From Alphaproteobacteria bacterium (lineage in GTDB: Bacteria; Pseudomonadota; Alphaproteobacteria; RF32; CAG-977): a stretch of DNA of 26,441 bases. The translations under genes and the position numbers were made by a program. Positions 2,173-20,678 of the stretch are shown one piece after another (positions within the stretch are counted from its first letter, which is position 1; each line of letters opens with the position of its first letter). The stretch spans positions 1 through 26,441 of the forward strand of contig JAFVEJ010000220.1 of the NCBI GenBank assembly GCA_017476085.1, in the 5' to 3' direction. The notes under the pieces are model-generated. The model had not been told where the DNA came from and did not search any database. It was given only the letters and a program-made list of their open reading frames with translations.

Positions 2173-2381
2173 GATATCAACTCCTGATTTTTTTCAGTTC
2201 TTTGATTTTAACTTTTTGCATTTTTCCCTTTAAGGGACAATATTTTTATCCGGTTTTTTTTCAACCACGCTTAAATTGGCAATCTCTAAGGCTGTTGTCA
2301 ATTTATTTTTATATTTTCTTTATCTGAAAGAATAGGGTAAAACAAAAAAAATCTCTCTTCACTTCTTATAAGGAGTTACTA

Positions 2382-3254: not shown

Positions 3255-3267
3255 AGAAAGTAAAAAA

Positions 3268-4416
3268 ATGTCATTTTTTTCAAATAAGGACTTGAATTTC
3301 CTGAATGCTCATTACGGCATGCGCGCAATGGGCTGGGAAATGTGTTCAATGTTCACATTGGCTTATCTGTATAAACAGGGGTTGTCTTTACCGCTGGCCT
3401 TTATTGTTTACGCCGGTATGCTGTTGGCTCGCCCGCTGACCAGACCGTTGTCCTTGTGGCTTTGCCTGAAAAAGGGGACTCATTTCACTTTGATGATCGG
3501 GACGATCGCTTTCGCCTGCCGTTATCCCGCGATGTTGCCGATCAAAGGATTGAGCTGGGCTTTGGTGCCGTTTATGCTGATTTCCGGATTGGCGGATTCG
3601 CTGTATTGGGTTCCGTATCACAACTATTTTGCTTCTGTCGGCGATACGAAAGACAGAGGTTCCAGCGTTGGCATCCGCGAAGCGATCGCCACCGTCGTCG
3701 CCGTTATCGGCCCCGTTTTCGGCGGCCTTTTGTTGGCCGTTGATCCGCTTTACGCGTTTATGCTGCCGTTCGTTCTGACGCTTCTGTCCGTTCTGCCTTT
3801 GATGAAAACGCCGTCCCTACCGGTTCCGGCAAAACCGACAAAGGAAGAAAAAAAGAATATCGATCCGTTCGGCTTCATCGTCTTCATCGGCGATGGCCTG
3901 TTCTTTCAGGCCGGCACGGTATGGCCATTGATCGTCTTTATGATTCTCAGCGAAAATTACGGGAATTTCGGTTTCATTCTCGCTTTGGCGGCGTTTTTCA
4001 GGGCGACGGGGTGTATGTTGTTCGGCAAACTAATTGATAAAGGAAACGGTTCTCTGATCTGCTTTATCGGATACGGACTGCATATCGTCGTTCTGACGGT
4101 TCGCGGATTTTTCGCCTATACGGTTCCCGTCGTCATCGCCTGCGACTTTTTCGCCGCCATCGCGTATTGTTTTTCGATACCGGGGCTGATGACGGCCGTT
4201 TACAACGCCACGAAACGCACGTCCCATCCGCTTTATTTCACCTATCATACGGAATTCGGATGGGATATCGGTGCCGTTTCCGCTATGCTGATATGCGCCG
4301 GATTGACGGCCGCCGGCATCAATCTGCGCTGGGGACTGGTTATTGCCGTCGCCGGTGCCGCGCTGAAAATATTCGTTCTTGACCGTTATTACCGGAAACG
4401 GAACATTCCTTCTTAA
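3268..4416 (+). CDS. MFS-type transporter, substrate unknown
   Basis: 382 aa, almost entirely hydrophobic, with about ten to twelve predicted membrane segments in two halves. The halves are separated by a charged loop near residues 185-200 (PAKPTKEEKKN). The loop after the second segment has L-A-R-P-L-T-R-P, resembling the MFS motif-A position but not canonical. The sequence G-L-A-D-S-L-Y-W-V-P-Y-H near residue 110 is reminiscent of MFS proteins with a YW-P motif. Substrate cannot be inferred. It follows galU by 13 bases with a weak AAAGAAAG Shine-Dalgarno. Its stop TAA and the TAA of the opposing RDD gene share the palindrome TTAA at 4413-4416. Confidence 0.75.
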   Translation: MSFFSNKDLNFLNAHYGMRAMGWEMCSMFTLAYLYKQGLSLPLAFIVYAGMLLARPLTRPLSLWLCLKKGTHFTLMIGTIAFACRYPAMLPIKGLSWALVPFMLISGLADSLYWVPYHNYFASVGDTKDRGSSVGIREAIATVVAVIGPVFGGLLLAVDPLYAFMLPFVLTLLSVLPLMKTPSLPVPAKPTKEEKKNIDPFGFIVFIGDGLFFQAGTVWPLIVFMILSENYGNFGFILALAAFFRATGCMLFGKLIDKGNGSLICFIGYGLHIVVLTVRGFFAYTVPVVIACDFFAAIAYCFSIPGLMTAVYNATKRTSHPLYFTYHTEFGWDIGAVSAMLICAGLTAAGINLRWGLVIAVAGAALKIFVLDRYYRKRNIPS

Positions 4417-5390
4417 TTTTCCGCCGCCGGAACCGAAGTTAAAAAAATCTGCAGCTGTGTCATATAATTATCATACTGGCGAGCCATTTCAGCTTCTTCG
4501 AAAACAGGGCGGCCGTTGATAATCTGATATTTGTTTTTCTCTTCAGATTTAAAAAAGTCCAAAATATTTTCAAACAAGCCGACTCTCATGCTTTCCGTAA
4601 ATAAAAACCTGTCCAGCTTTTCAAAAAACAGATCGGCCTGATCCTGCCGGAGTTTTTTCCATCCGCCTTCAGGCATTTTGTCAACTTGCGTTTGCACAGC
4701 GTCTTTTAACAGAATGATTTCCTCTCGTTGATATTGCAGCCGTTTTTGAATAGCCGACAACGCTTCTGCCGTCTGTTCGGCGGCCTGAGGAGACAAAACG
4801 GATTCTTCGGACAAAGCCCGCACCATTTGCGGACGGATTTCTTCAAAATACGGCGTTAAGATATTATTTTCCAAAGAAGCAAAGTCCGGCTCTCTGTATA
4901 AAAAAGCTATTCTGGCAGTCATAAAATATCCCGAAGCCAGAAAAATCAAAAAACAAGCCAGCACAATTTTATCCGCCAGCGTTGTTTTTACAAACCGAAC
5001 ATCATCGGGAACAGCAGAATCCCACGGGATTGATTTGCCTTTAACCGCCCGAAAAAAAACATAAGCGGGCAAAATCAAAGAAATATACGGCAGGAATAAT
5101 CCCATTCCGACGCCAAAAACCAAAAAAGCCCGTTTAAAAGACTTTAAAAAAGGCAGCTTTTCACCGTTTTGACCAAAAACATAAATTCCCGTCAATCTTT
5201 TTCCCGCCGTCGTTGCAAAGCAAGAAATCAACAAAGCTTCGATAAAAAGATATATCCAAAACGCCGCATAAAAAATCAGGGACGGATTTGCAACGCTTCC
5301 GATTTTGTCTCCCAAAACGGAAACTGTCAGCATTCCCCAAAGTAAATAATCAATCAGGCGGGCTATGGTGCGCCGCAAAAAACAAACCAT
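4413..5390 (-). CDS. RDD-family membrane protein with long cytosolic tail
   Basis: 325 aa. Residues 1-150 carry the RDD domain: R-R-T-I-A-R-L-I-D near residues 6-14, then T-T-A-G-K-R-L-T-G-I-Y-V near 61-72, with about four membrane segments. A further hydrophobic segment lies near 140-160, followed by about 165 mostly polar residues with helical, coiled-coil-like character (many Gln and Glu around 195-240). The tail is an unusual extension over a typical RDD protein and has no domain I know. Function of the family is unsettled; some members are proposed ion exchangers. It lies 51 bases downstream of the ClC gene on the same strand, with GGGGAG before its ATG, so it is likely co-transcribed. 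Confidence 0.7.
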   Translation of the reverse strand: MVCFLRRTIARLIDYLLWGMLTVSVLGDKIGSVANPSLIFYAAFWIYLFIEALLISCFATTAGKRLTGIYVFGQNGEKLPFLKSFKRAFLVFGVGMGLFLPYISLILPAYVFFRAVKGKSIPWDSAVPDDVRFVKTTLADKIVLACFLIFLASGYFMTARIAFLYREPDFASLENNILTPYFEEIRPQMVRALSEESVLSPQAAEQTAEALSAIQKRLQYQREEIILLKDAVQTQVDKMPEGGWKKLRQDQADLFFEKLDRFLFTESMRVGLFENILDFFKSEEKNKYQIINGRPVFEEAEMARQYDNYMTQLQIFLTSVPAAEN

Positions 5391-5441
5391 TTTTTCTCCC
5401 CGTTTCTTGCTTTATCGGAAACAGAGTAGCGCTTTTTGGTT

Positions 5442-6758
5442 TTATCCTCCAGATTTTTGTTTGCTTTCCGAATTTGGAATCGGATTGATACGCCAACTTT
5501 TTTTGTCGTGCGGATCGGCTAAAACAAAATCATCCGATTTCGGCCGAACAAGAATTTGCGTCGGATACAAACTATGCGCTCCGGAACTCATATAACTGAC
5601 GATGCAAACCACTCCGGCGAACGGCGCGACGGAAGCTCCGAACAGCTCTGTTGCCAGAAAAACCGCCGCGATCGGTGTGTTGACCGCGCCGGCGACGCAT
5701 CCGACAAACCCCAATGCGCCGAAAAAAGCGATATCCAATCCGAAAAGCTGAGCAAACAAAGCTCCCGCCGCAGCGCCGATATAAAAAGTCGGCGTCAGTA
5801 CGCCGCCCGATCCGCCGCCGGAAAGCGTCACGCCCAATAAAAAAGATTTGAGAATAAAGGCATACCAAACAACCGATTTTCCCGACAAAACGGAATTTAA
5901 GCCTTTTTCCCCCATTCCTAACGGAGCGTCGCCAAAGAAGAAAACAACCGTCAGAATCACAGCTGAAGCAATAAGACTTTTTCCCCAATCCGGCAAAAAT
6001 ATCTTTTTAAAAAGAGACATCACGCCGTCTGTCAGCTTGATATGGCAAATGCAGACCGCTCCGAAAAAAATCGCGGCCAAAAGACACCATTCCAGCACCT
6101 CCGGTGTCAGGGAAGGAATGACAATATTATATAGAGTGTACGGAACATGCATTTGAAGACAAACCATATAAGAAACGACGGCACTGATCAAAGCCGGCAG
6201 CAACGCCGGATAAAATACTTCTCCGACGAACAAAACTTCCACCCCGAAAACGGCCCCCGCGACCGGCGCGCCGAAAACAGCGGACAAAGCCGCCGATACG
6301 CCGCAGACAACAAGTTTTTTTCTTTCTTTGACCGTCAATTTAAACAAACGGGACAATTCCGACATCAGGCCCGCTCCGACTTGAACGCTGGGCCCTTCCG
6401 TACCGACGACGGCGCCCGGTGCCAAAGTAAAAATCGTTGAAAGAATTTTGATCGGCACAACGCAAAAAGGAATAAAGGCTTCCTTATAATGAATCGCCGA
6501 AATAACTTTGTCCGTCCCATGGCCCGCGGCCTGAGGCGCCAAATACTTAATCGAAAACAAACTTACCAGCAATCCGGCAGGAATTAAAGCATACCGCCAT
6601 TCCGACAAAGAATCGACCCAATCAATCGCCCGATATAAAATGATTAAAAACAATCCGACGGCACAACCGACGACAATGCCGCAGACAACAGCCAAAAACA
6701 GCCATTTTATGAACCCTCTGAACAAAATTTCTTCGTCGTATATTTCCTGATTGTCCAT
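5442..6758 (-). CDS. ClC-type chloride channel/transporter
   Basis: 438 aa, the length of a bacterial ClC without CBS domains, with the expected run of hydrophobic helices. The G-T-E-G-P motif at 119-123 supplies the gating glutamate (Glu121, equivalent to Glu148 of E. coli ClC-ec1). G-G-G-S-G-G-V-L-T-P near residue 315 is the second chloride-binding loop. Aligned to ClC-ec1 by eye, the inner proton glutamate (Glu203) falls on Val in the segment V-F-G-V-E-V, and the G-S-G-I-P loop reads G-H-G-T-D. The first change is shared with channel-type ClCs, so exchange stoichiometry should not be assumed. It is the first gene of a unit with the RDD protein and is divergent from the gene at 7024. Confidence 0.9.
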   Translation of the reverse strand: MDNQEIYDEEILFRGFIKWLFLAVVCGIVVGCAVGLFLIILYRAIDWVDSLSEWRYALIPAGLLVSLFSIKYLAPQAAGHGTDKVISAIHYKEAFIPFCVVPIKILSTIFTLAPGAVVGTEGPSVQVGAGLMSELSRLFKLTVKERKKLVVCGVSAALSAVFGAPVAGAVFGVEVLFVGEVFYPALLPALISAVVSYMVCLQMHVPYTLYNIVIPSLTPEVLEWCLLAAIFFGAVCICHIKLTDGVMSLFKKIFLPDWGKSLIASAVILTVVFFFGDAPLGMGEKGLNSVLSGKSVVWYAFILKSFLLGVTLSGGGSGGVLTPTFYIGAAAGALFAQLFGLDIAFFGALGFVGCVAGAVNTPIAAVFLATELFGASVAPFAGVVCIVSYMSSGAHSLYPTQILVRPKSDDFVLADPHDKKSWRINPIPNSESKQKSGG

Positions 6759-6951
6759 AGCGTTTCCCCCGTTGAAACAAATTTAGCCGAATCACCGAAA
6801 ACGACAAAGATGGCATTCCGGCCATAAACAGAAGCTGTCGCCGGAAACAAATCCTTTTTCGTTAAACAAAAAAATCGTATATTTGGCTGAAACAAAGGAA
6901 TTATTAAAAAATACTTTCTAAAAATTTTTTCACATTTGTCTAAAAATTCCT

Positions 6952-6980
6952 TGACTTTTTACAAAGACCGCTTCAGTATG
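6952..6980 (+). promoter_or_regulatory. Candidate promoter for the large zincin-like gene
   Basis: TTGACT at 6952-6957, a 17-base spacer and AGTATG at 6975-6980, overlapping a TATGCAAATATAG stretch. The gene starts 44 bases downstream at 7024. The -35 is good and the -10 is mediocre. Confidence 0.45.
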
Positions 6981-7023
6981 CAAATATAGTTAAATTTTTG
7001 CTGTAAACAGGTTAGGAATCGTT

Positions 7024-9378
7024 ATGGCTGAAGAAGTTAAAGAAGAAGTAAAAACACCGTTGCTTGACGCCTTTATGAAGGCCGGAAAAATTTCAGTTTT
7101 TGAAAGCGGATTGGATCGCCCGGATCACTTGCAGGACCGCCCGTTCTTTAATTTGCTGCCGAAGGGGGAAACCACCTTCATTAATATGAGCGAAACAGCC
7201 GACAAGCTGTATGTCAAATCCGCTGCGGAACAGGCCGAATCGCCTGCTTTGGATACGGAAGCTCACAAATTTTTTGAAAATATGGAAAAACGTTTCCGCA
7301 CGGTTATGCCCGGCGTAACGCTGTTTATTATTGATCCGGACGCCGTTCAGGGACGTTACCTGATGGATCAGTCCGCCGACCGCAGTCTGGGCAAGTCCCT
7401 GTATATGCATGTCGAAGAAAAGTTGCAGAAAGCCGCTGCCGGAAACAATCAGACCTTCCTGACGCAGGAAGATATTTTGAAATCCGTTTCCGAAGCCGGC
7501 ATCACCGACCGCAATCCGTTTTCGATGCGCGCCGCCGTTGCGCCGACGCTGGAAAATCTGGCCGGTTTGGGCAATGTCAATTTGGTCGTCGGCGACAACC
7601 CCGACGCTATGGAAGCCAACGTATTGGGTATGGTTGTCGGGGCTGAGGAACGCCGCTTGAAAGAAGGCATTTCCCGTGACGAATTCCGCCGCTTGGTTTT
7701 ATACCACGAATTAGGTCATGCGACCGACCACAACTACGCTTCCGCTTATAATTCCGTTGAAAAAATTGCGGAAACGGAACTGGATAACGTGATGTGCCGC
7801 CACCGTACGGAATGCATTGCGGACGCGCACGCCGTTTTACAGTTGGCTCGCGATTTCGGAACGACGAAATGCGCCGAACTGTGGGGCGATTGCCGTATCG
7901 AGTATTTGCGTATATGTGTTGACCGTCGTTTGGAAGACACGAAATACGACACCGAATTTATGAAGAAGCTGCGCGAAGCCGAAGAAAAATCTCATGCGCA
8001 GAATCCGAACGATCCCGACTATGAAAACGATTTCAAGCGTTTGATGGCCGACAAGCAGATTGCCGATACGGTCAAAAAACTGGGATCGCCGTTAGCTTAC
8101 CATACAACGGACGTTATTGACGCGACGGTCAAATGGGCCAAGGAGCATTTAGCGGACGGTTCTTTGCAGAAAATGACGGATTTGGAAGTCATTAAGCAGG
8201 CGCAGATTATGTCCGAAACTTACGGTCTGACACGTCAGCAAATGGCAGAAATGTCGATTGCTTTGGCCAAAGGCGACAGATCTCATCCGAAATATCAACA
8301 GATGATGGAACGCGTTCAGGAATCCCGCGATCGTATGCCGATCAGCAACAAAAAGCTGGAACAGGAATACGAAACGCAGCGTGAATTGAATGCGTATATG
8401 GAAGCCGCTCAGCTGTCTGCCGGTTTGGGACTGCCGATGCCGGAGCAGAAATTTTCTCCCGCTCTGAAGAAAAAATTGATTCAGCAGCAGATTGACTCCC
8501 AGAAAATGGAAATGTTGGGACGGTTGAGCGTTGCCCAGTATCAGCAGGATTTGTTGGACAAGCTGGAAAAAACGACTTCCCGTGAAGAAATGCATGCCAT
8601 TTTGGGACAAGAAAAGGAAGAGCTGCGCACCGCCGGCAAGAATGACGCGGGTGAAAAAGACCTGTTCGCCGGTTCCAAGCTGAAAGTCGTTGACGCCGTG
8701 ATTGACCAGGCGCCGAATGTCGAAGCCATTTTGACGGCGAACAAATCCATTAAGAAACAGTTGGATGAAATCAAATCTTCGACAGAGGTTTCCGGGGATG
8801 AGGCGATCGTTCATTTCATTAAAAACGAATTGAAAGTCGCAACGGCGCTGAGCGATGCCTTGCTCAAGTCTTACAAACGCGAGCCGGAAAACATGACGCC
8901 GGAACAACAAATCAATTCCCTGCGTGCCGAACACAAAGATTTCAAGAAAGCTTTGTTGGCCGAAAAGGAAACGCAGATCGCGGCTTTTGCCATCCGTTCC
9001 GACAAGGAAGCCTGGGCAAAGGTTTCTCAGGATCCCGTTTTGGCTCAGCTGATTGATCAAAAGGCGAAGCAAAAACCGACTGCGGCTTTGGGACAATACC
9101 AAATGAACTTCGGAACGGCGGATAAAAATGTTATCGCTTCTCTGTTCCAGGATGTTGCCGAAACGCACAAGTATCTGGTAGAAACGTTTACCGGAAATCC
9201 GCAGACCGCGGCCGCGTTGGAGAAAAAAGACCTCCGCACGTTTACTTCTATGAAAAAATATGCGGATCAACTGAAAAAGACGGAACGCACTTCTCCGTTA
9301 AATTTGAAAAACTTCAAACTTGAACAGAAGAAGTCTGCTTTGGATGCCGTGATCAGCGCGAAGAAGCAAAGAGTATAA
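7024..9378 (+). CDS. Large cytosolic protein with a zincin (HEXXH) metallopeptidase-like centre
   Basis: 784 aa, no signal peptide or membrane segment, highly charged. The motif L-Y-H-E-L-G-H-A-T-D-H places HEXXH at residues 228-232, with another His at 236. About thirty residues later comes E-C-I-A-D-A-H (Glu263, Asp267), resembling the third-ligand ExxAD segment of gluzincins such as M48 and related peptidases. The rest, especially about 300-784, is rich in Lys, Glu and Gln and probably helical; I recognise no other domain. A peptidase role is inference from the motif. The ATG has AGGA seven bases upstream. A degenerate copy of its last ~30 codons sits at 11654-11745, marking a duplication. 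Shine-Dalgarno and codon use look native. Alternative: a structural protein with a degenerate zincin fold. Confidence 0.6.
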   Translation: MAEEVKEEVKTPLLDAFMKAGKISVFESGLDRPDHLQDRPFFNLLPKGETTFINMSETADKLYVKSAAEQAESPALDTEAHKFFENMEKRFRTVMPGVTLFIIDPDAVQGRYLMDQSADRSLGKSLYMHVEEKLQKAAAGNNQTFLTQEDILKSVSEAGITDRNPFSMRAAVAPTLENLAGLGNVNLVVGDNPDAMEANVLGMVVGAEERRLKEGISRDEFRRLVLYHELGHATDHNYASAYNSVEKIAETELDNVMCRHRTECIADAHAVLQLARDFGTTKCAELWGDCRIEYLRICVDRRLEDTKYDTEFMKKLREAEEKSHAQNPNDPDYENDFKRLMADKQIADTVKKLGSPLAYHTTDVIDATVKWAKEHLADGSLQKMTDLEVIKQAQIMSETYGLTRQQMAEMSIALAKGDRSHPKYQQMMERVQESRDRMPISNKKLEQEYETQRELNAYMEAAQLSAGLGLPMPEQKFSPALKKKLIQQQIDSQKMEMLGRLSVAQYQQDLLDKLEKTTSREEMHAILGQEKEELRTAGKNDAGEKDLFAGSKLKVVDAVIDQAPNVEAILTANKSIKKQLDEIKSSTEVSGDEAIVHFIKNELKVATALSDALLKSYKREPENMTPEQQINSLRAEHKDFKKALLAEKETQIAAFAIRSDKEAWAKVSQDPVLAQLIDQKAKQKPTAALGQYQMNFGTADKNVIASLFQDVAETHKYLVETFTGNPQTAAALEKKDLRTFTSMKKYADQLKKTERTSPLNLKNFKLEQKKSALDAVISAKKQRV

Positions 9379-9416
9379 GAACTCCGTTAAACAGAGTTGT
9401 CTTAAATATCAGAAAC

Positions 9417-9451
9417 CCCCGTTGATTCTTTTTTCAACGGGGATTTTTTTT
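9417..9451 (+). terminator. Rho-independent terminator of the zincin-like gene
   Basis: Stem CCCCGTTGA (9417-9425) pairs with TCAACGGGG (9434-9442) around an eight-base loop, followed by A and eight T's. Confidence 0.9.
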
Positions 9452-9647
9452 GCAAATCGAAAACAGGCGCTCACATACAGATCAAATCGGAAAGATTATC
9501 CGGCGATTTTTTTATTCACATCTCTAAAAATTCAAAACAGTCGGCACATTTTTCCGATTCGTTTTCAAATCGCGACAAAAAAAATCATCAATAAAGTGAC
9601 GATTTATTACATTAATGTTACATATATACAACTGTGCCACATTTCTT

Positions 9648-9676
9648 TTGTAAGATTTTCCTTTTGGTGATTTAAT
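9648..9676 (+). promoter_or_regulatory. Candidate promoter of Cys-rich gene pair A/B
   Basis: TTGTAA, 17 bases, TTTAAT. A TG one base before the -10 makes it extended-type (TGATTTAAT). The same arrangement is kept upstream of the second copy (12035-12063, TGCTTAAAT), although most of the surrounding spacer has diverged. That conservation is the main support. Confidence 0.45.
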
Positions 9677-9713
9677 AGATATTAGGCAATCTTTTTTAAA
9701 GGAGGGTTATACC

Positions 9714-10226
9714 ATGAAAAAAACCTTATGTTTAACCGCAGTAATGCTGTCTGTCTTTGCCTTTTCCGGCACGGCAAACGCCCTGCAAGCGGATGTGATG
9801 AGCTCAGAGCTGAATACTATTAGAAACTTTGAGCAACAACAATACTTAATTGATGATGTTGTCGCTTATGAAGGCGGTACCGGTGGCGGAACGATTGTCG
9901 GCAATTCTTGCGCTTCCACCTGCGGCGGGGCTTCAACTCAATCGGCTTGTCAGGCCGGCGGCTATGTCTGTAGAAGCAGCGGCGGATGTTGGTGTCCGAC
10001 CGGTACGCCCCTTGGTTCCGGCACCTTAATCGATCGCGATCTTAGTGATACTGTATTAGTCGATCGTCTCGATCGTCTCGATCGTTTCGATGGTGACATC
10101 GCAGCAGCAGACATCGGCTCCATTGTGGACGGCGGTTCGGGTTCCGGCACGACGAAGAAAGTCAGCGGCAACTGCCCGGAGGGAACGTCTTTATCCAGCG
10201 ATAAATGCTGCTGTGTCGCCAACTAA
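9714..10226 (+). CDS. Small exported cysteine-rich protein A (copy 1)
   Basis: 170 aa. A signal peptide covers residues 1-23 (MKK, hydrophobic core, cut after T-A-N-A); there is no lipobox. The mature part has ten cysteines. Six are in a conserved Gly-rich block containing C-A-S-T-C, S-A-C, Y-V-C and C-W-C, and four are at the C-terminus, ending D-K-C-C-C-V-A-N. Between them lies a variable, Asp-rich linker with a D-R-L repeat encoded by a 9-bp DNA repeat. Fold and function are unknown to me; exported disulfide-rich proteins are a reasonable reading. AAAGGAGGG precedes the ATG. Gene B follows after 21 bases, so the two are one transcription unit. The second copy is at 12099. Confidence 0.8.
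   Translation: MKKTLCLTAVMLSVFAFSGTANALQADVMSSELNTIRNFEQQQYLIDDVVAYEGGTGGGTIVGNSCASTCGGASTQSACQAGGYVCRSSGGCWCPTGTPLGSGTLIDRDLSDTVLVDRLDRLDRFDGDIAAADIGSIVDGGSGSGTTKKVSGNCPEGTSLSSDKCCCVAN
10061..10090 (+). repeat. 9-bp tandem repeat inside gene A
   Basis: Three units of CGATCGTCT (the last with a T for C) in frame, each encoding Asp-Arg-Leu or Asp-Arg-Phe. Copy A' has no counterpart. In-frame units let the linker length change without a frameshift. Confidence 0.8.
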
Positions 10227-10247
10227 GAAATGAAGGGAGCCCTAATC

Positions 10248-11504
10248 ATGAAAAAATATCTCTTCATTTTAGCGGGGCTGTTGTGTTTGTTGGGACAGGG
10301 TGAAGCCGAGGCGAGAGCCGTTAAATTGGGCCGCGGCACCAGTATTGGTGGTATCCGCCCCGGTCCGGAGCCTTGCACAGGCAGCAACTGTTCCGGGCCC
10401 GGCCCGACTTTCTGTCCCGCGAATTGCGCGTCCTGCAACGGTTCATCCTGCAGCAAATGCAAAAGCGGTTATTATCTGAAAAACGGGGGATGCACCCCAT
10501 GTCCGGCGAACGCAACATGTTCCGGCACAGAGACGATTACCTGCAACACCGGATTCCATCGTTCGGCAACGGGAACAACCTGTACGGAATGTTCCGACAT
10601 TACCGTTGCGAATGGTACATGCACGGCTTGCCAGGCAGTTGGCAATACCTGTACAAACGTGTCCTGCTACTACGGATACGTCAAATCAGGCACAACGTGT
10701 TCCGCAATCAGCTTCTCCGGCATGAGCTGCGTGTCCGGTTATAGAAAAGTTGTTTCTTCCGACAGAGCATGCTGCGTTCCGATGTGTCAGGGAGTCAGCT
10801 GCGTGTCCGGTTACACACCGACGGCCACTTCGACCGGTTGCTGCTGTCAGGCAAATACGACACCGATCGCGAACTGCGCGACACAAAGCGGCAATACCTG
10901 CACGAAGTGCATTACCGGCTATAAACTGAGCGGAAACAGCTGCGTAAAAGATCCGACTGCATGCGGCACCGCACAAGTATATCATCCTACTTTGAAAAAA
11001 TGTGTGGCCGCCGTATGCCCGTCAAATTGCGCGGATATGTGCACCCAAGGCTATTGCGCAAGCTGCAAAGCCGGATATAAGTTGAACAGCAATGGCACGT
11101 GTGACAGTCTTTGCACAGCTTTGCAGGTATGGCATCCCACTCTCGGCAAGTGTGTTTCGGCTACATGTCCGATAAATTGCGCGGATATGTGCACCGGCGG
11201 ATATTGCACAAGCTGCAAAACCGGCTATACGTTGAACAGCGATGGCGGGTGTGACCTAAAGCTTGTCAAACCTTCAACTGGCAGCGACGCTTGTGACGGA
11301 ACGTCCAGCACTCCGCGCTTCTGCGATAACGGATTGATTCGTGTCGAAGGCAGAGGATGCTGTCCGTCCGATTATGCATCGAAGCCTAACTATGCATGCT
11401 ATCAGTGCCATGTCGCTACCGTCCAACAAGAGGCTGTGAGTGATAATCTTTTTGGAGGAGACTTGGATTGGGAGACTAATAGTGGTCGCCTGAATCTGAG
11501 GTAG
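10248..11504 (+). CDS. Exported protein B with many cysteine-rich, EGF/furin-like repeats (copy 1)
   Basis: 418 aa from the chosen ATG at 10248, which has AAGGGAG eight bases upstream. An in-frame ATG at 10230 lies ahead of that Shine-Dalgarno and would add residues before the signal peptide. The signal peptide is about 24 residues (MKKYLFILAG..., cut near G-E-A-E-A). The mature chain has about fifty cysteines, mostly as C-x(2,3)-C and G-Y-x-L-x-x-x-G-x-C units like growth-factor-receptor/furin-type Cys-rich modules. Order: a Cys module (about 45-75), a segment unlike copy 2 (about 80-155), a near-identical S-G-Y-R-K-V-V-S-S-D block (about 160-200), two 50-residue tandem repeats starting Q-V-Y/W-H-P-T-L, and a C-terminal domain with G-R-G-C-C-P. 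The tail after Y-Q-C is about 26 residues longer than in copy 2. Likely surface or secreted; binding role is inference. Confidence 0.8.
   Translation: MKKYLFILAGLLCLLGQGEAEARAVKLGRGTSIGGIRPGPEPCTGSNCSGPGPTFCPANCASCNGSSCSKCKSGYYLKNGGCTPCPANATCSGTETITCNTGFHRSATGTTCTECSDITVANGTCTACQAVGNTCTNVSCYYGYVKSGTTCSAISFSGMSCVSGYRKVVSSDRACCVPMCQGVSCVSGYTPTATSTGCCCQANTTPIANCATQSGNTCTKCITGYKLSGNSCVKDPTACGTAQVYHPTLKKCVAAVCPSNCADMCTQGYCASCKAGYKLNSNGTCDSLCTALQVWHPTLGKCVSATCPINCADMCTGGYCTSCKTGYTLNSDGGCDLKLVKPSTGSDACDGTSSTPRFCDNGLIRVEGRGCCPSDYASKPNYACYQCHVATVQQEAVSDNLFGGDLDWETNSGRLNLR
10977..11276 (+). repeat. 150-bp tandem repeat in gene B (two units)
   Basis: Two 150-base units beginning GTAT(A/G)(T/G)CATCC at 10977 and 11127, each encoding a 50-residue module with eight cysteines and the core C-A-D-M-C-x-x-G-Y-C-x-S-C-K. 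The same two-unit array occurs in B' at 13269, with the same period. Confidence 0.8.
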
Positions 11505-11545
11505 TTTCCTTCCTCAATACCTCACATTTTTGATGTGTTAAAAGA

Positions 11546-11576
11546 AAACCGCGAAGTCATCTTCGCGGTTTTTTTG
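11546..11576 (+). terminator. Rho-independent terminator of pair A/B
   Basis: Stem AAACCGCGAAG (11546-11556), loop TCAT, CTTCGCGGTTT (11561-11571), then T's. The stem is identical to that at 13745-13770; only the loop differs. Confidence 0.93.
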
Positions 11577-11653
11577 TGTTTCGTCTTATGTATCAAGCGG
11601 CCGTTATATTTTCCGCATCATTTTCCGATTTGTGATATTTGTCCCGTCCTAAA

Positions 11654-11745
11654 GCGGATCACGAAGAACACGGAACGCACTTCTCCGTTGAATTTGAAAA
11701 ACTTCAAGCTTGAACGGAAGGAGCCTGCTTCGGATGCCGTAATCG
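11654..11745 (+). pseudogene. Degenerate copy of the 3' end of the zincin-like gene
   Basis: From GCGGATCA onward this stretch matches 9262-9352, the last part of the gene at 7024. It carries the same CGGAACGCACTTCTCCGTT run, and its translation T-E-R-T-S-P-L-N-L-K-N-F-K-L-E agrees with the C-terminus of the 784-aa protein. A 2-base gap near its start and about a dozen substitutions are visible. It has no start or Shine-Dalgarno and no longer resembles the parent after about 11745. It is a relic of the duplication that made the second Cys-rich pair. Confidence 0.88.
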
Positions 11746-12034
11746 GTGCCTTTGATTGTTTGCATCGTTAACAATCAAATTTATGTTCAATATTTTTTAT
11801 CCCTTTAAAAACTTTTGCCGTTTTTATCCTAAATGCCGCTCGCAACTTTCAAAACGGCCAAAAAAAATTCTTTTTATTTTACAAAATGATTTTCAGTTGA
11901 ATTAAGAATATTTTCTTTCATTTCCGATTCGTAAAAAAGAATAAAACATAAAAAAATCCTGTTCATATCCCTTCATATATTTATATCTAATGTGTAATTT
12001 AACAGTATATACTATTTGTTCTTTGATAAATTAC

Positions 12035-12063
12035 TTGTTTTTATTTTTTTAGTGTGCTTAAAT
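12035..12063 (+). promoter_or_regulatory. Candidate promoter of Cys-rich gene pair A'/B'
   Basis: TTGTTT, 17 bases, TTAAAT, with TGC directly before the -10 (extended type). Position and spacing match the candidate upstream of copy 1; the following (A/T)AATAG is also shared. Confidence 0.45.
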
Positions 12064-12098
12064 AGTATTATAGTATCTTTTAAAAGGAGGGTAATATT

Positions 12099-12524
12099 AT
12101 GAAAAAAAGTTTATGTTTAATCGCAACAATGCTGTCTGTTCTTGCCTTTGCCGGAACGGCACATGCTTTTTTGGAGGAGCATCAGCATCTTCAAAACCAA
12201 CTACAGTTATATGAAGGCGGCGGTGGCGGCGGCACGATCATCGGCAATTCATGCGCTTCCACCTGCGGCGGGGCTTCAACTCAATCGGCTTGTCAGGCCG
12301 GCGGTTATGTCTGTACGAGCAGCGGCGGATGTTGGTGTCCGACCAGCACACCTCTAGGCAGTATCATAACTCCGGGCGACCTAGGTAATCATCAAGTCAT
12401 AACGAATCCCCCCTCTGTTGTTCAAAGCGGCGGTTCGGGATCCGGCTCGACAAAGAAAGTCAGCGGCGACTGCCCGGCGGGAACAACCTTATCCGGCGAC
12501 CAATGCTGTTGTATTGCCAACTAA
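12099..12524 (+). CDS. Small exported cysteine-rich protein A' (copy 2)
   Basis: 141 aa, paralogue of the protein at 9714. The signal peptide is about 23 residues, cut after T-A-H-A. The same ten cysteines are kept. The central Cys block is almost unchanged: 53 consecutive bases (12252-12304) equal 9909-9961. The N-terminal mature segment and the linker between the two Cys clusters are different in sequence and shorter (29 residues fewer overall), with no D-R-L repeat. It keeps the G-S-G-S-x-T-K-K-V-S-G stretch before the final C-C-C. AAAAGGAGGG precedes the ATG. B' follows after 21 bases, the same spacing as in copy 1. Confidence 0.8.
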   Translation: MKKSLCLIATMLSVLAFAGTAHAFLEEHQHLQNQLQLYEGGGGGGTIIGNSCASTCGGASTQSACQAGGYVCTSSGGCWCPTSTPLGSIITPGDLGNHQVITNPPSVVQSGGSGSGSTKKVSGDCPAGTTLSGDQCCCIAN

Positions 12525-12545
12525 GAAATGAATGGAGCCCTAATC

Positions 12546-13709
12546 ATGAAAAAATATCTATTCATTTTAGCTGGGCTTTTGTGTTTGTTGGGACAGGGCG
12601 AAGCCGAGGCGAGAGCCGTTAAATTGGGCCGCGGCACCAGTTCGGGAACCGCGTCCGGCCACCAGTTTCAACCGGCCAACAGCGGCTTCGGCGGACCGAC
12701 TTTCTGCCCCGCAAATTGCACGTCCTGCAACGGTTCATCCTGCAGCAGATGCAAAAGCGGTTATTTCTTACGGGACGGTTCCTGTGTTTCATGTCCGTCC
12801 AACGCAAGTTGCGACGGTATAAATGCCGTCTGCAACAACGGTTACAGCTTTGGTAAAGGCGGAACATTCGGCGGCTGTATCAAATGTCCCGACGGATGCG
12901 AATCCTGTACTCCGACCTATGCCGGAACGTCTCAATCCGGTATGAGTTGTACAGCGTGTAACCGCGGTTACACCAGATATTACAACACCACAGGCACCAA
13001 CGCTTTGTGTTGCGCTACAGGATATGAGCTTGCCGACGGCGGTCAGGGCAGCAACGGTTCCAGATATGATCAATGTGTCAAAAAGGCTGTCAGCTACGCG
13101 AATATGAGCTGTGTGTCCGGTTATAGAAAAGTCGTTTCTTCCGACAGAGCATGCTGCGTTCCGATGTGTCAGGGGGTCAGCTGCGTGTCCGGTTATACGC
13201 CGACGGCCACTTCGACCGGTTGTTGCTGTCAGGCGACAACAACGCCGACCACATGCGGTCCGATGCAGGTATATCATCCCACTTTGAAAAAATGTGTACC
13301 CGCAGTATGTCCGGTAAATTGCGCGGATATGTGCTCCGGCGGCTATTGCGCAAGCTGCAAACCCGGATATACGATGAACGGCATCGGCGGGTGTGACAGT
13401 CTTTGCACAGATTGGCAGGTATGGCATCCCACTTTGAAAAAATGTGTACCCGCAGTATGCCCGTCAAATTGCGCGGATATGTGCTCCGGCGGCTATTGCG
13501 CAAGCTGCAACCCCGGATATACGCTGAACAGCGATGGTGGGTGTAGCCGAAAGCCTTTCGGACAGCTAGAAGAACCGGGAGATGCTTGTGACGGAACGTC
13601 CAGCACTCCGATTTTCTGCCCTGCCGGCTTGATTCGTATTGAGGGAAGAGGATGCTGCCCATCCAATGCATCTCCCAGCCAAGCATGTTTTCAATGCGCA
13701 GTCAGATAA
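12546..13709 (+). CDS. Exported protein B' with many cysteine-rich repeats (copy 2)
   Basis: 387 aa from the ATG at 12546, with TGGAG eight bases upstream; an in-frame ATG at 12528 lies before that site. The signal peptide is identical to that of B (MKKYLFILAG...). The first Cys module and the block around 13108-13234 (S-G-Y-R-K-V-V-S-S-D through G-C-C-C-Q) are near-identical to B. The segment between them (about 12780-13100) is not alignable by eye to the corresponding part of B; it has its own C-P-D-G-C-E-S-C and C-N-R-G-Y units. Two 50-residue repeats and the G-R-G-C-C-P domain follow, but the chain ends soon after F-Q-C. Export and disulfide richness are supported; role unknown. Confidence 0.8.
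   Translation: MKKYLFILAGLLCLLGQGEAEARAVKLGRGTSSGTASGHQFQPANSGFGGPTFCPANCTSCNGSSCSRCKSGYFLRDGSCVSCPSNASCDGINAVCNNGYSFGKGGTFGGCIKCPDGCESCTPTYAGTSQSGMSCTACNRGYTRYYNTTGTNALCCATGYELADGGQGSNGSRYDQCVKKAVSYANMSCVSGYRKVVSSDRACCVPMCQGVSCVSGYTPTATSTGCCCQATTTPTTCGPMQVYHPTLKKCVPAVCPVNCADMCSGGYCASCKPGYTMNGIGGCDSLCTDWQVWHPTLKKCVPAVCPSNCADMCSGGYCASCNPGYTLNSDGGCSRKPFGQLEEPGDACDGTSSTPIFCPAGLIRIEGRGCCPSNASPSQACFQCAVR
13269..13568 (+). repeat. 150-bp tandem repeat in gene B' (two units)
   Basis: Units start at 13269 and 13419, an offset of exactly 150 bases. They are much closer to each other than the two units of B are, sharing long identical runs such as ACTTTGAAAAAATGTGTACC and GCGGATATGTGCTCCGGCGG. This points to recent homogenisation or a recent unit duplication. 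Confidence 0.85.
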
Positions 13710-13744
13710 TAAGATATCGTAACATTCTATAATGTGTTAAAAGA

Positions 13745-13774
13745 AAACCGCGAAGAAATCTTCGCGGTTTTTTT
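13745..13774 (+). terminator. Rho-independent terminator of pair A'/B'
   Basis: Stem AAACCGCGAAG (13745-13755), loop AAAT, CTTCGCGGTTT (13760-13770), then T's. Duplicate of the hairpin at 11546. Confidence 0.93.
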
Positions 13775-13881
13775 GTGTATGACACAATCTTTATATTTTT
13801 CATATCATTTTCCGATTTGTGATGTTTACCCTCTCCTAAAGCGGATATTGTTCTTTATGGCGAAACGTTTATATTGATATT

Positions 13882-14712
13882 ATGGAAAAATTGCAAAAAA
13901 CAAAAACAATCGCTTTACCTTCCGGCCGCGTCATTCCGGCTTTGGAAATAGGCATGTGGTATCTGGGCGAAGATGCCGGCGCCTATTTCAAAGAAACCGA
14001 CTTGATCCGCAACGCGTTGGATCTCGGCTTTCGGGCGTTTGACACGGCGTAAATGTATGTTCACGGCGGCGCGGAAGAAGTATTGGGCGAAGCGGTTTCC
14101 GATTGTCGGGACGAAGTGTTTTTAACATCAAAAGTTTCCCCCGTCCTTTCCGGTTATGATGAAATCATCGAAGCTTGCGATAAAAGTCTGGAACGGCTGA
14201 AAACGGACTATTTGGACATGTATCTGCTGCACTGGGGAACATATCGCAGCCGGCCGGAAGAAGTATTGGAGGCTTTTACCGATCTAAAAGAAGACGGGAA
14301 AATTTTGGATTTCGGCGTTTCTCACTTCGATCTGCAAGATTTCAAAGAATGGCTTTCTTTTGAAAACGCGCAAGAAACCGCTATGAATCAAGCTTTTTTC
14401 AACCCGTGCCATCGCCAAATGGAAAAAGACCTGCTGCCGTTCTGTCGAAAAAAGAAAATTCCTTTAATCGCCTATGCGCCGCAGGATGTCTGCGCTGTCG
14501 CTTATCAAAACAGCGTTGTGTGCAAAATAGCGGAAAACCATAAAACAACGCCACGCCAAATCGTTCTGGCGTGGCTGTTGGCGAAAGACAATGTCGGCGT
14601 TTTGGTCAAAGCCCTGTCAAAAAAAGATCTGAAAGACTGTTTTGCTTCACAGTTCATCCTTTTGCGGATTGAAGAAATTGACGCTTTAAACGCCACTTTT
14701 CCGCTGTATTGA
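13882..14712 (+). pseudogene. Aldo/keto reductase interrupted by one in-frame TAA
   Basis: From ATG 13882 the frame encodes an aldo/keto reductase of 276 positions, the family length, except that codon 57 (14050-14052) is TAA. The family motif D-T-A-E-x-Y reads D-T-A-stop-M-Y, so one G-to-T change of GAA explains it. The tetrad is otherwise intact: Asp54, Tyr59, Lys84 (L-T-S-K) and His117 (L-L-H-W). An ATG directly after the stop (14053) could allow reinitiation, but the product would lack the first strand and the catalytic Asp. Later family features (G-V-S-H-F near 140, T-P-R-Q-I-V-L-A-W-L near 220) are present with no other lesion. Either a recent nonsense mutation or a base error. No clear Shine-Dalgarno before 13882. 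Confidence 0.85.
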
Positions 14713-15462
14713 TTATTCGACGTGCGCCGCGGTCAACCGTTTTGCGACAGCATCCGCCGCTTCGGCAGGCGTTGGCGTCGAAGCCAAAATCGTATTGATG
14801 TCGTCTTGTGTCAAACCGGAAAACCGCGCCAAAGCCGCAATATATTCCTGTTCGCCTTTAGCCAAACCGGCATAATTCTTCAAAACAAACTTTTTCACCT
14901 GCATTTTAAAAGCGTCAAAAATTTTTGTCTTTGAAGCGTTAAGAGGCATCATCTCGACATAAAACTGATTTTTATCATAGGCAAAATAATAACCGAACGG
15001 ATTAAATTCGGTTGTAAAACTGAACGGCAACGCGACCAGATCAACTACGAATTTTCCCAAATTGTAAACAAGCTTTACCGTTGAAGTCGGGCTGGTCGTC
15101 GCAGCGTCTGCGCCCAAATCAGACAGATTGGATGTGATATCCCCGCTTTCCTGCGTTGTCCAGACAACAGAACTTTGATGCGAAGTCACATTTCTTTTTT
15201 CCGGCTGACTGCGATAAACAATCACGCGCGCTTCATGATACCCGCCGGCTTTTAAAGTGATGATATCCATACCGGTTTGTTTTAAAATATGTTCTTTAGC
15301 GGCGTTTTGAATTTTTTGGCCGTTAATCCAGATTTCAGCCGGCACGTTTGATGAAACGGAAATATCGGTTTCCGGCTTTTGGTCCAAACTTTCATAGTGA
15401 GTCAAGGCGCATCCGCCGAGCAAACACAATCCGAAAGTTTGTAAAACGCGTTTTATTTTCAT
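14713..15462 (-). CDS. Putative lipoprotein of unknown function (PEGA-like segment)
   Basis: 249 aa. The N-terminus is a lipoprotein signal with lipobox L-G-G-C, placing the lipidated Cys at 18. Residues about 35-85 (V-P-A-E-I-W-I-N-G-Q-K, then L-K-A-G-G-Y) resemble a PEGA-type beta domain: a surface or periplasmic carbohydrate- or protein-binding module. A hydrophobic stretch near 130-150 (F-V-V-D-L-V-A-L-P-F) could sit in or on a membrane. The C-terminal part is helical with an Ala-rich end. AAGGA lies nine bases before the ATG. The gene is convergent with the aldo/keto reductase; their stop codons abut (14712/14713). Confidence 0.65.
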   Translation of the reverse strand: MKIKRVLQTFGLCLLGGCALTHYESLDQKPETDISVSSNVPAEIWINGQKIQNAAKEHILKQTGMDIITLKAGGYHEARVIVYRSQPEKRNVTSHQSSVVWTTQESGDITSNLSDLGADAATTSPTSTVKLVYNLGKFVVDLVALPFSFTTEFNPFGYYFAYDKNQFYVEMMPLNASKTKIFDAFKMQVKKFVLKNYAGLAKGEQEYIAALARFSGLTQDDINTILASTPTPAEAADAVAKRLTAAHVE

Positions 15463-15637
15463 GAAAAATATCCTTCAGTTGATAAACAGGAGTTTATTTT
15501 TATAGCATTTTTTCCATAAAAAAGCACGCTTCATCTCTCCGGTTTGCAAAAAAATCGGCAAATAACATTTTATCCGAATGAAAGACTTGCTTTTTTTTAA
15601 ATTTGTGGCAAATTAACAATGCTTTAAAAGTTCACTC

Positions 15638-15670
15638 GGACGCTTTGAAGCTATTAAGAGGCGTCCTTTT
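15638..15670 (+). promoter_or_regulatory. Hairpin in the leader of gap
   Basis: GGACGC (15638-15643) pairs with GCGTCC (15661-15666), followed by TTTT, 28 bases ahead of the gap start. The loop is 17 bases. It could be a leader structure or a weak terminator; nothing shows which. Confidence 0.3.
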
Positions 15671-15698
15671 AAAAACTTATATTTTAAGGAGAAAATAC

Positions 15699-16709
15699 AT
15701 GGCAGTTCGCGTTGCGATCAATGGTTTCGGCCGTATCGGCCGTTTGGCTTATCGTGCTTTGGCAGAATCCGGCCGTACGGATGTTGAAGTCGTTGCGATT
15801 AACGATTTGGGTTCCCCGAAAGCTAACGCTCATTTGTTGCAGTTCGATTCCGTTCACGGCCGCTTCCCCGGTGAAGTTTCCGCGACCGACGATTCGATCA
15901 CGGTCAACGGCAAAACCGTTAAAGTTTTGGCTGAAGCCGACCCGACCAAGCTGCCCTGGAAAGAATTGGACATCGACATCGTGTACGAATGCACGGGCCG
16001 TTTCACCGATGCGGACAAAGCGAAAGTCCATCTGGATGCCGGCGCTAAGCGCGTTCTGGTCTCCGCTCCGTCCAAAGGCGCCGATCTGACGGTTGTTTAC
16101 GGCGTCAACGACGACAAACTGACCGCCGAACACAAGATCGTTTCCAACGCTTCCTGCACGACGAACTGCCTGTCTCCGGTTGCCAAAGTCATTCATGAAA
16201 ACTTCGGCATCGTCCGCGGTTACATGACGACGATTCACTCCTACACGGGCGATCAGCGCACGGTTGACACGCTGCACAAAGATTTGTACCGCGCTCGTGC
16301 CGCCGCTATGTCTATGATCCCGACAACGACCGGCGCCGCGAAAGCCGTCGGCCTGGTTCTGCCGGAATTGGCCGGTAAGCTGCAGGGTTCCGCGATTCGC
16401 GTTCCGACTCCGGACGTTTCCGTCGTTGACCTGAAAGTCGTTCTGGAAAAGAACACGACGGAAGAAGAAGTCAACGCCGCGATCAAGGCCGCTTCCGAAT
16501 CCGCCCGCCTGAAAGGCATTCTGGGCTACAACGATCTGCCGCTGGTTTCCATCGACTTCACGCACACCAGCTACAGCTCGATTTTCCACGCCGACCAGAC
16601 GAAAGTCATCGACGGCAACTTCCTGCGCATCATGAGCTGGTACGACAACGAATGGGGCTTCTCCAACCGTATGTCCGACACGGCTGTCGCTATGGCGAAG
16701 TTCCTCTAA
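15699..16709 (+). CDS. gap: Glyceraldehyde-3-phosphate dehydrogenase (type I)
   Basis: 336 aa. It oxidises glyceraldehyde-3-phosphate to 1,3-bisphosphoglycerate with NAD and phosphate in cytosolic glycolysis. The Rossmann motif I-N-G-F-G-R-I-G-R is at residues 7-15, the catalytic Cys153 in S-N-A-S-C-T-T-N-C, and His180 in M-T-T-I-H-S-Y-T. The C-terminal W-Y-D-N-E-W-G-F is complete. The start is at 15699 with AAGGAG seven bases upstream; an in-frame ATG 96 bases earlier lies in the leader and adds residues unlike the family. pgk follows after 78 bases on the same strand. Codon use is strongly biased, as expected for high expression. Confidence 0.97.
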   Translation: MAVRVAINGFGRIGRLAYRALAESGRTDVEVVAINDLGSPKANAHLLQFDSVHGRFPGEVSATDDSITVNGKTVKVLAEADPTKLPWKELDIDIVYECTGRFTDADKAKVHLDAGAKRVLVSAPSKGADLTVVYGVNDDKLTAEHKIVSNASCTTNCLSPVAKVIHENFGIVRGYMTTIHSYTGDQRTVDTLHKDLYRARAAAMSMIPTTTGAAKAVGLVLPELAGKLQGSAIRVPTPDVSVVDLKVVLEKNTTEEEVNAAIKAASESARLKGILGYNDLPLVSIDFTHTSYSSIFHADQTKVIDGNFLRIMSWYDNEWGFSNRMSDTAVAMAKFL

Positions 16710-16723
16710 GAATTTCAACAGGA

Positions 16724-16761
16724 AAGCGGCTTCCTCCCTCAAAGGAGGGAGCCGCTTCTTT
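16724..16761 (+). terminator. Strong hairpin between gap and pgk
   Basis: AAGCGGC (16724-16730) pairs with GCCGCTT (16751-16757) and TCCCTC with GAGGGA, with a TTCC bulge, followed by CTTTTAT. The stem is long, the T tract short. It may end part of the gap transcript or protect its 3' end, giving more gap than pgk mRNA. Confidence 0.65.
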
Positions 16762-16787
16762 TATGTACAAACAAAGGAAAAATACAA

Positions 16788-17978
16788 ATGTCTAATTTCA
16801 ACACAATCAAAGATTTGGACGCGGCCGGCAAAGTCGTTTTCGTCCGCGCGGATTTGAACGTCCCCTTCAAAGACGGCAAAGTCACCGACACCACCCGCAT
16901 TGACCGCTTTGTCCCGACCGTAAAGGCCTTGACGGATAAAGGCGCGAAAGTCGTCATCGCTTCCCACTTCGGCCGTCCGAAAGGTCAGGTCGTTCCAGAA
17001 ATGTCTTTGGGACAGATTGTCGCGGATGTCGAAAAAGCGCTGGGTCAGAAAGTCGTTTTCGTTGACGACTGCATCGGTGCAAAAGTCGAAGCCGCGATAA
17101 AAGCCATGAAAAACGGCGATGTTATCATGCTGGAAAACCTGCGCTTCTACGCCGAAGAAGAAAAGAACGACGCCGATTTCGCCGCTAAATTGGCAAAAGA
17201 CATTGATATCTATGTCAATGACGCGTTCTCCTGCGCGCACCGCGCCCACGCTTCCACGGAAGGCATGGCCAAATTGAAACCGAATGCCGCCGGTCTGCTG
17301 ATGCAGGCGGAATTGGAAGCTTTGGATGCTGCCTTGGGCAATCCCGTCCGTCCGGTCGCCGCGATCGTCGGCGGCGCGAAAGTGTCCACAAAGTTGGATT
17401 TGCTGGGCAATCTGGTTGCCAAAGTCGACAAGCTGGTCATCGGCGGCGGTATGGCGAATACGTTCCTGTTCGCTCAGGGCGTTGATGTCGGCAATTCCTT
17501 GTGCGAAAAAGAAATGGCTGACACCGCTCGTGAAATCATGAAAAAAGCCGAAGCCGCAAAATGCGAAATCATTCTGCCGGTTGACGTTGTCGTCGCGAAG
17601 GAATTTGCCGAAAACGCCGAGAACAAGACGGTTGACGTAAACGCCGTTCCGGCCGACATGATGATTTTGGATATCGGACCGAAATCCGTTGAAGAAATCA
17701 ACAAAAAACTGGCTGAATGCAAAACAGTGATTTGGAATGGCCCTGTCGGCGCGTTCGAAATCAAGCCGTTCAACAAAGCGACGTTCGCAATCGCCGAAGC
17801 GGTTGCCGATCTGACAGCAAAAGGTCTGAAATCCATCGGCGGCGGCGGTGACACGGTTTCCGCACTGAAGAAAGCGGGCGTTGCCGAAAAATTATCCTAC
17901 CTGTCCGCCGCGGGCGGCGCTTTCCTTGAATGGATGGAAGGCAAAATCCTGCCAGGCGTTAAAGTTTTGGAAAAATAA
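16788..17978 (+). CDS. pgk: Phosphoglycerate kinase
   Basis: 396 aa, full length. It transfers phosphate from 1,3-bisphosphoglycerate to ADP, the step after gap. Visible motifs in order: R-A-D-L-N-V-P near residue 20, S-H-F-G-R-P-K-G near 60, E-N-L-R-F near 115, D-A-F-S-C-A-H-R near 148, G-G-A-K-V-S-T-K near 195, W-N-G-P-V-G near 315, and the nucleotide loop G-G-G-G-D-T near 350. S-A-A-G-G-A-F-L-E lies near the C-terminus. AAAGGA precedes the ATG. Its own terminator follows. Confidence 0.97.
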
Positions 17979-17996
17979 ATTTTTCAACTAAACAGC

Positions 17997-18029
17997 AAAA
18001 GCCGTGTTTCCCGTAAACGCGGCTTTTTT
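17997..18029 (+). terminator. Rho-independent terminator of pgk
   Basis: AAAAGCCGTGTTT pairs with AAACGCGGCTTTT (one T-G wobble) around a five-base loop, then T's. Confidence 0.9.
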
Positions 18030-18100
18030 GTCCACTTTTTCACAAACCAATGAGAAAATCGATTAAAACGGCCTCTTTTTTTTCAAAATTTTGTCATATC

Positions 18101-18128
18101 TTTTCAGAAAAAAGTGTGGTAGTATAAT
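18101..18128 (+). promoter_or_regulatory. Candidate promoter of the gene at 18156
   Basis: A perfect TATAAT at 18123-18128 with TTTTCA 16 bases upstream (18101-18106). The -10 is convincing, the -35 weak. The start codon lies 27 bases downstream. Confidence 0.55.
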
Positions 18129-18155
18129 GGAAATTTAACTATGGAGGAACCGACT

Positions 18156-20036: not shown

Positions 20037-20046
20037 AATGATACCC

Positions 20047-20079
20047 AAAACGCCCGATAAAAAAAATCGGGCGTTTTTC
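20047..20079 (+). terminator. Rho-independent terminator after the gene at 18156
   Basis: AAAACGCCCGAT (20047-20058), a seven-A loop, ATCGGGCGTTTT (20066-20077), then T. It lies between the stop at 20036 and the next start at 20095, so read-through is needed for co-transcription. Confidence 0.88.
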
Positions 20080-20094
20080 CTAAAGAGAAAGACA

Positions 20095-20628: not shown

Positions 20629-20635
20629 ACCGCAA

Positions 20636-20660
20636 AAAACCCTCCGACAGGAGGGTTTTT
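20636..20660. terminator. Bidirectional terminator between convergent genes
   Basis: AAAACCCTCC, loop GACA, GGAGGGTTTTT. An A run on the left gives T's on the minus strand, so it can serve both the gene ending at 20628 and nth ending at 20679. Confidence 0.85.
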
Positions 20661-20678
20661 GTTAAACTTTAAACAATC

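Follow-up and report, generated by a model that had tools for sequence, protein, structure and literature searches.

We analyzed a 26,441-nucleotide (nt) stretch of alphaproteobacterial DNA (contig JAFVEJ010000220.1 of assembly GCA_017476085.1; the whole stretch is called the window below). We found that a pair of adjacent genes for cysteine-rich proteins, here named A and B, occurs twice together with its terminator between a zincin-like gene and the frame of an aldo/keto reductase (AKR). It is strongly supported that this arrangement is a tandem duplication whose breakpoints lie in the 3' end of the zincin gene and in the region upstream of AKR. The same series, i.e., zincin 3' end, A, B, terminator and AKR upstream region, is present in segment 9262-11653 and again in segment 11654-13846. 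An unguided direct-repeat search returned A, B, the terminator, the AKR-upstream tail and a relic of the zincin 3' end all in register at a spacing of ~2.2-2.4 kb, and the two terminators (11533-11579 and 13732-13778) were 96% identical, which bore out an original prediction, made from the DNA letters alone, that the A-B-terminator unit is present twice.

The junction between the copies could be read base by base. The three boundary sites proposed earlier (9262, 11654 and 13841) fell exactly on the hexamer GCGGAT, which was common to both parental breakpoints and was kept in a single copy at the junction; the longer sequence GCGGATCA was found at 9262 and 11654, its only two occurrences on the + strand of the window. 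On the left of the junction, a tail repeat (11586-11659 and 13773-13846) showed 78% identity over 74 nt. On the right, the relic (11663-11749) matched positions 9273-9359 of the zincin 3' end at 76 of 87 sites in an ungapped alignment. The corresponding shuffle-based alignment z-scores were 14.4 and 19.1, and the best match of the relic stretch elsewhere (positions 1-9260 and 14001-26441, both strands) was 40/87. The junction was thus a hybrid, its left side like the downstream flank and its right side like the upstream flank. Because sequence left of 11654 copies that left of 13841 and sequence right of it copies that right of 9262, the structure bears the signature of a tandem duplication with GCGGAT common to both ends. 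This anatomy agrees with the proposal that an unequal event between two GCGGAT sites made the second unit. A decayed zincin copy had also been placed between the units; the copy is there, but it does not reach the end of the gene, as it stops at 11749, short of the last 19 nt of zincin and of the zincin terminator. The chance of a microhomology of at least 6 bp at a random junction is ~0.0013 (~1 in 750, equal base frequencies assumed), although this probability is only a guide because the + strand of the window contains 23 copies of GCGGAT.

Comparison with related genomes pointed to the state of the site before the duplication. A zincin relative was present in all seven genus genomes, and in each of the five with both genes visible (G001, G006, G008, G009 and G010) zincin and AKR were adjacent without the pair, separated by 536, 120, 58, 92 and 249 nt, respectively; in G002 and G007 the contig ends 0.5 and 0.9 kb from zincin, and these genomes lie outside this count. 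No A or B match at E 1e-4 was detected in any of 10 zincin loci, and three genomes outside the genus (loci L003-L005) had no AKR match within the available stretch. Two of the sources of L001-L005 were rumen, one was horse faeces and two were unstated. Since genus relatives have zincin-AKR without the pair, A-B appears to be a newcomer at this site, and its new arrival in the lineage of the window is strongly supported by these gene orders. The right-hand tail aligned with the AKR upstream region in 3 of 5 relatives (L051, z 6.1, from 13809; L049, z 5.2, from 13796; L001, z 4.7, from 13839); alignment was weak for L048 (z 2.0) and lacking for L047 (z -0.9).

The zincin-AKR site itself seems to take insertions. 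In L001 (G001), GC-rich and, by eye, repetitive-looking DNA fills the spacer (12440-12830), and in L050 (G007) a transposase-like open reading frame (ORF; 8342-8794), which by eye we take to be of IS200 type, lies directly after zincin. The uptake of other DNA at this spacer, as well as the dissimilarity between the distal spacers upstream of A1 and of A2, would fit two independent insertions of A-B, the second carrying a zincin fragment or landing by one. Such insertions would leave unexplained both the copy of the native AKR-upstream sequence left of the relic (78% over 74 nt) and the join at a shared GCGGAT, and we consider them very unlikely.

The tandem duplication was followed by changes that differed along the unit. 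The original prediction stated that the spacers had diverged; they were indeed unalike, but this was an understatement for the distal part. Positions 9360-9640 and 11750-12020 showed no clear similarity (z 1.9), and simulation rejected ordinary substitution of this spacer, as 20 simulations with 22% substitutions and without indels gave z 22-33. Some similarity between the units was kept in the last 70-80 nt upstream of A (z 4.4), and the entire spacer had z 3.7. Because the distal spacer cannot be aligned though the adjacent relic is 87% alike, it was probably replaced, and because unit 1 retains zincin's own end and terminator, unit 2 would be the changed copy. A hairpin-like sequence could also be read directly 3' of the zincin stop in relatives.

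Within the genes, alike blocks were defined as 16 windows of up to 20 codons with at least 80% nucleotide identity, chosen by that identity. At fourfold sites in these blocks, the units differed at 30 of 125 positions (24%). Relic differences fell at 6/29 third (21%), 3/29 first and 2/29 second zincin codon positions. The blocks' fourfold sites did not differ from relic third positions (Fisher p 0.81); against all relic sites (11/87) the p value was 0.051, in the direction of blocks that are older, not younger. Gene conversion over whole blocks between the units was therefore rejected, since alike blocks were not younger at silent sites (30/125 vs 6/29). It had been suggested that selection or gene conversion keeps the coding blocks alike. 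As the silent-site difference in the blocks is close to that at relic third positions, purifying selection on the cysteine blocks, which is supported, suffices and conversion between copies is not needed. Fourfold differences of single codon windows varied on small numbers (0/4, 1/12 for the one at 9894, and 3/5), and short converted tracts between units are possible. Fourfold differences to four relatives were 42-54% for zincin and 37-63% for AKR. These exceed the divergence of the copies, which places the duplication after the splits from those relatives.

Exchange of segments was most evident in the homologues, where it chiefly took the form of swapped variable modules. A 43-residue block of B (MSCVSGYRKVV...GCCCQ) had one variable position among nine aligned B proteins, with type changes on both sides of it. 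Sites informative for B1 versus B2 were arranged blockwise in all 5 homologues tested, with fewer runs than in shuffled sequences (p 0.00025 or less); the test used five of the alignment's seven homologues, leaving out P0007 and P0001, the latter being almost a copy of B2. For example, P0003 was B2-like (17 sites), then B1-like (52) and then B2-like with three single exceptions, and in P0002 a B2-like stretch of 59 sites reached through the middle, after which 30 of the 40 informative sites were B1-like. Both proteins are reported from a longest contig of 60,428 bases; if they share one contig, the middle modules of its two B genes would be exchanged in comparison with those of B1 and B2. Similar patterns were observed at the DNA level within single genomes, where near-identical, sharp-ended segments were shared between non-allelic copies. 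At L094 (G008), two copies (about 3547 and 11456, - strand) had 456 bp in common at 99.3%, a segment that starts ~270 bp upstream of the gene and covers its initial 186 bp; beyond this segment, only a 37-bp repeat was found in the compared stretches. The last 37 bp of this 456-bp block recur (89%) downstream of one copy, perhaps as a crossover mark. The L054 B gene (G001) was 90% like L089 B over nt 4-280, and its last ~20 nt and ~200 nt of 3' flank were 89% like L058. In G010, the 3' ends of genes had ~90-170 bp in common at 93-99% (for example, 101 bp at 98% for L070/L072, 96 bp at 99% for L071/L075 and 167 bp at 98% for L069/L074), with mostly different DNA beyond. Many of these shared-end loci sit at contig ends, as expected because assemblers meet repeats there, and the repeats of this family may explain why contigs of such genomes stop at these loci. 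These patterns strongly support the view that members of the A-B family are mosaics, with homologous recombination as the probable agent of exchange.

A simpler course of events would be a tandem duplication after which the copies changed through ordinary divergence and selection alone, with no segment exchange at this locus. The equal divergence of block fourfold sites and relic third positions (30/125 vs 6/29) speaks for it, as no conversion is needed, but it does not account for a distal spacer that is unalignable (z 1.9 vs 22-33 simulated) beside a relic that is 87% alike, nor for the strongly different middle modules of B1 and B2, each of which recurs in homologues in other combinations. 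On balance, this course seems unlikely.

The window is one of several places where such genes are found. Homologue searches gave 37 proteins for B2, 64 for B1 and 9 for A1 (A1 itself included). Across species, A typically carries a C-terminal tag resembling CPxGTxLSxDxCCC. In B, a signal peptide (by eye) is followed by KAxKLGR and often by a CxGVxC...CCC block. Of 12 family genomes, 6 contained the KAxKLGR pattern, with 10, 7, 6, 4, 2 and 1 matches (30 in total), compared with 1 match for the reversed control; 5 of 12 related genomes had the B motif at 2-10 places. An ORF scan with a slightly wider motif covered 48 sources, i.e., the window and 47 of 107 loci, most chosen for B hits. It yielded 32 distinct motif-bearing ORFs, and an A-type CCC end lay 10-43 nt upstream of 16 of them (outside the window, of 14 of 30). 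Exceptions among the 32 were L090 and L099, which have one or no cysteine, and L103, which reads KLGS. No B2 relative was found in viral contigs. Among the titles and abstract openings listed by literature searches, none described the family. By these motifs and gene orders, A-B belongs to a dispersed two-gene family of disulfide-rich signal-peptide proteins, unnamed in the libraries searched, in which A and B may act as partners; it is most likely a recombining family of genes for secreted or surface proteins. At L104 (G002), A-like and B-like genes alternate in a run of four couples, judged by position and cysteine content, with one extra A-like gene besides; two A-like genes carry the CCC tag. 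This run indicates that the tandem arrangement is not peculiar to the window, and it is also relevant to misassembly of two strains or loci as the origin of the tandem structure. The source is likely metagenomic and family loci often lie at contig ends in relatives, which would fit such an artefact; however, besides this run of genes elsewhere, the units are too different for a simple repeat artefact (alike 20-codon windows 80-97%, distal spacers unalike), and the relic at the junction has decayed with substitutions of its own, which makes misassembly highly improbable.

We therefore return to the tandem duplication of a newly arrived pair and regard as very probable a whole history in which a newcomer A-B pair was duplicated in tandem at GCGGAT and the copies then diverged and exchanged segments as part of a dispersed recombining family. 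Zincin and AKR would have been neighbours in the genus ancestor, as the comparison supports. In the lineage of the window, an A-B-terminator unit may then have inserted between zincin and AKR, downstream of the zincin terminator. The subsequent tandem duplication, a strongly supported step, joined the AKR-upstream GCGGAT to the zincin 3'-end GCGGAT, which produced unit 2 and left a dead piece of zincin between the two units; microhomology-mediated illegitimate recombination or replication slippage may have been the agent. Later, the copies diverged by ~20-24% (silent or relic sites) while purifying selection kept the cysteine blocks, and the spacer before A2 and the variable modules of A and B may have been exchanged with other family members, as seen in homologues. 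Constant blocks (the B start to KLGR, the 43-residue GCCCQ block and the C-terminal tag of A) alternate with swappable modules, so that recombination between paralogues could yield new combinations. The most likely use would be to supply diverse binding proteins, at the surface or secreted, that are directed at hosts, protists or competitors.

Several observations weigh against parts of this history. No genome with a single-copy zincin-A-B-AKR intermediate was found, and the prediction that relatives would have this order was not borne out: all five genus genomes in which both genes are visible lack the pair, their zincin and AKR lying 58-536 nt apart. These genomes bear only on the step before the duplication, and the single-copy stage is inferred. 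Fourfold differences of GAPDH to the four relatives were just 17-32% (17% for L051), and on GAPDH alone the duplication would therefore not be dated later than the split from L051; the low value may be due to codon bias. The mosaic test was significant in just 2 of 8 A homologues (P0040, p 0.0025; P0044, p 5e-5), and the runs test can be inflated because B1 and B2 are themselves likely mosaics and their variable parts align poorly. The KAxKLGR pattern had no match in 6 of 12 family genomes, and a strict rule gave no upstream A-type partner for 16 of 32 B-type ORFs. The structure model of A (mean predicted local distance difference test score, pLDDT, 38) was useless and was set aside.

Features of the locus are listed in Table 1.

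Table 1. Positions of genes, repeats and breakpoints at the duplicated locus, numbered from the first letter of the window
Feature	Position	Strand	Remarks
Zincin-like gene	7024..9378	+	ORF, 784 aa; 3' end is the left breakpoint region
Left breakpoint microhomology GCGGAT	9262..9267	+	Within zincin gene
Zincin's own terminator	9415..9453	+	By eye; missing from unit 2
A1	9714..10226	+	Cys-rich (11 Cys in 170 aa), signal peptide by eye; C-terminal tag CPEGTSLSSDKCCCVAN
B1	10248..11504	+	Cys-rich, signal peptide by eye, then RAVKLGR; 418 aa, 53 Cys from ATG 10248
Unit 1 terminator	11533..11579	+	96% identity to unit 2 terminator
AKR-upstream tail copy	11586..11659	+	Ends in GCGGAT junction; 78% to 13773-13846
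Relic of zincin 3' end	11654..11749	+	11654-11659 is the hybrid junction
Unit 2 distal spacer	11750..12020	no strand	Cannot be aligned to 9360-9640; probably replaced
A2	12099..12524	+	141 aa, 11 Cys, tag CPAGTTLSGDQCCCIAN
B2	12546..13709	+	387 aa, 49 Cys
Unit 2 terminator	13732..13778	+	Direct-repeat search
Native AKR upstream region	13796..13881	+	Right breakpoint GCGGAT 13841-13846; relatives' alignment clear in 3/5
AKR frame	13882..14712	+	Pfam Aldo_ket_red on 14053-14709

The zincin-like gene contains HELGH, which we take to be an HExxH motif, and had no Pfam or NCBIfam match; A1, B1, A2 and B2 had no match above cut-off in these two libraries. The AKR frame beside unit 2 is interrupted by a single in-frame TAA (14050-14052), which may mark either a pseudogene or a sequence error; the frames are intact to the end in five relatives. 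Elsewhere in the window, a CBASS-like defence pair lies at 23938-25400 (- strand), with a CD-NTase (PADLOC Cyclase, E 1e-70) and a NucC endonuclease effector (E 2.4e-76). The gene at 18141-20036 had an LPD7 match below threshold (22 bits, cut-off 27) and shared 28% identity with its L001 counterpart across the matched part, though the nearby GAPDH was 99.7% identical.

The duplication by itself is ordinary. Its direct copies, hybrid junction, short common sequence present once and truncated flanking gene in between are like those of bacterial microhomology (illegitimate) tandem duplications, from which it differs in nothing of kind; here, the duplicated unit is itself new at the site. The family behind it, found in several related gut or rumen Alphaproteobacteria genomes with segment exchange at the DNA level, is of more interest. 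The structure model of B was moderate (mean pLDDT 70, predicted template modelling (TM) score 0.31). Its structural matches were weak: the best Foldseek match had E 7.9e-4 with a TM-score of 0.10, whole-chain TM-scores were low, and the best 50 of 169 structural matches were mostly EGF, furin, TNFR and other disulfide-rich proteins. These matches, together with a profile match of B to R-spondin-2 (E 0.0023), whose Fu domains recall EGF/furin-like/TNFR/ephrin-receptor-like repeats, hint at disulfide-rich beads on a string and at no more than that. Ephrin-receptor-like repeats (PF07699), which are best known from animals, were detected above cut-off in A-type genes of L054, L057 and L058 (G001; up to 148.5 bits); in contrast, A and B of the window match no Pfam model above cut-off. 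The variant-specific surface proteins of Giardia (PF03302) are similar in their Cys-rich repeats, and homologues P0006 and P0049 scored 18.0 and 24.2 bits, below the curated cut-off of 31.4. Membership was rejected, as the window proteins had no PF03302 hit and these homologues fell below the cut-off. The A-B family is bacterial, and the likeness lies in Cys-rich make-up.

Gene-converting or mosaic surface-protein families with a role in antigenic variation include Neisseria pilE/pilS, Anaplasma msp2 and Mycoplasma vlhA. The A-B family resembles them in having several paralogues, constant blocks around swappable modules and segmental identity within one genome, whereas many A-B copies look like complete genes and the A-B unit is a two-gene pair. 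It is tentatively possible that the A-B units of these uncultured rumen Alphaproteobacteria form a genome-wide diversification system with constant blocks as crossover anchors, reshuffled modules and A and B as cell-surface partners. A variable secreted A with a fixed CCC tag would then be coupled to B, a modular EGF/furin-like protein whose KAxKLGR start is fixed, and the modules in between would be reshuffled among dispersed and tandem copies in a way that might be likened, by analogy, to the coat families of eukaryotic parasites. If it is true that these genes form such a shuffling surface repertoire, they would be a bacterial counterpart, in gut bacteria, of eukaryotic Cys-rich variant coats.

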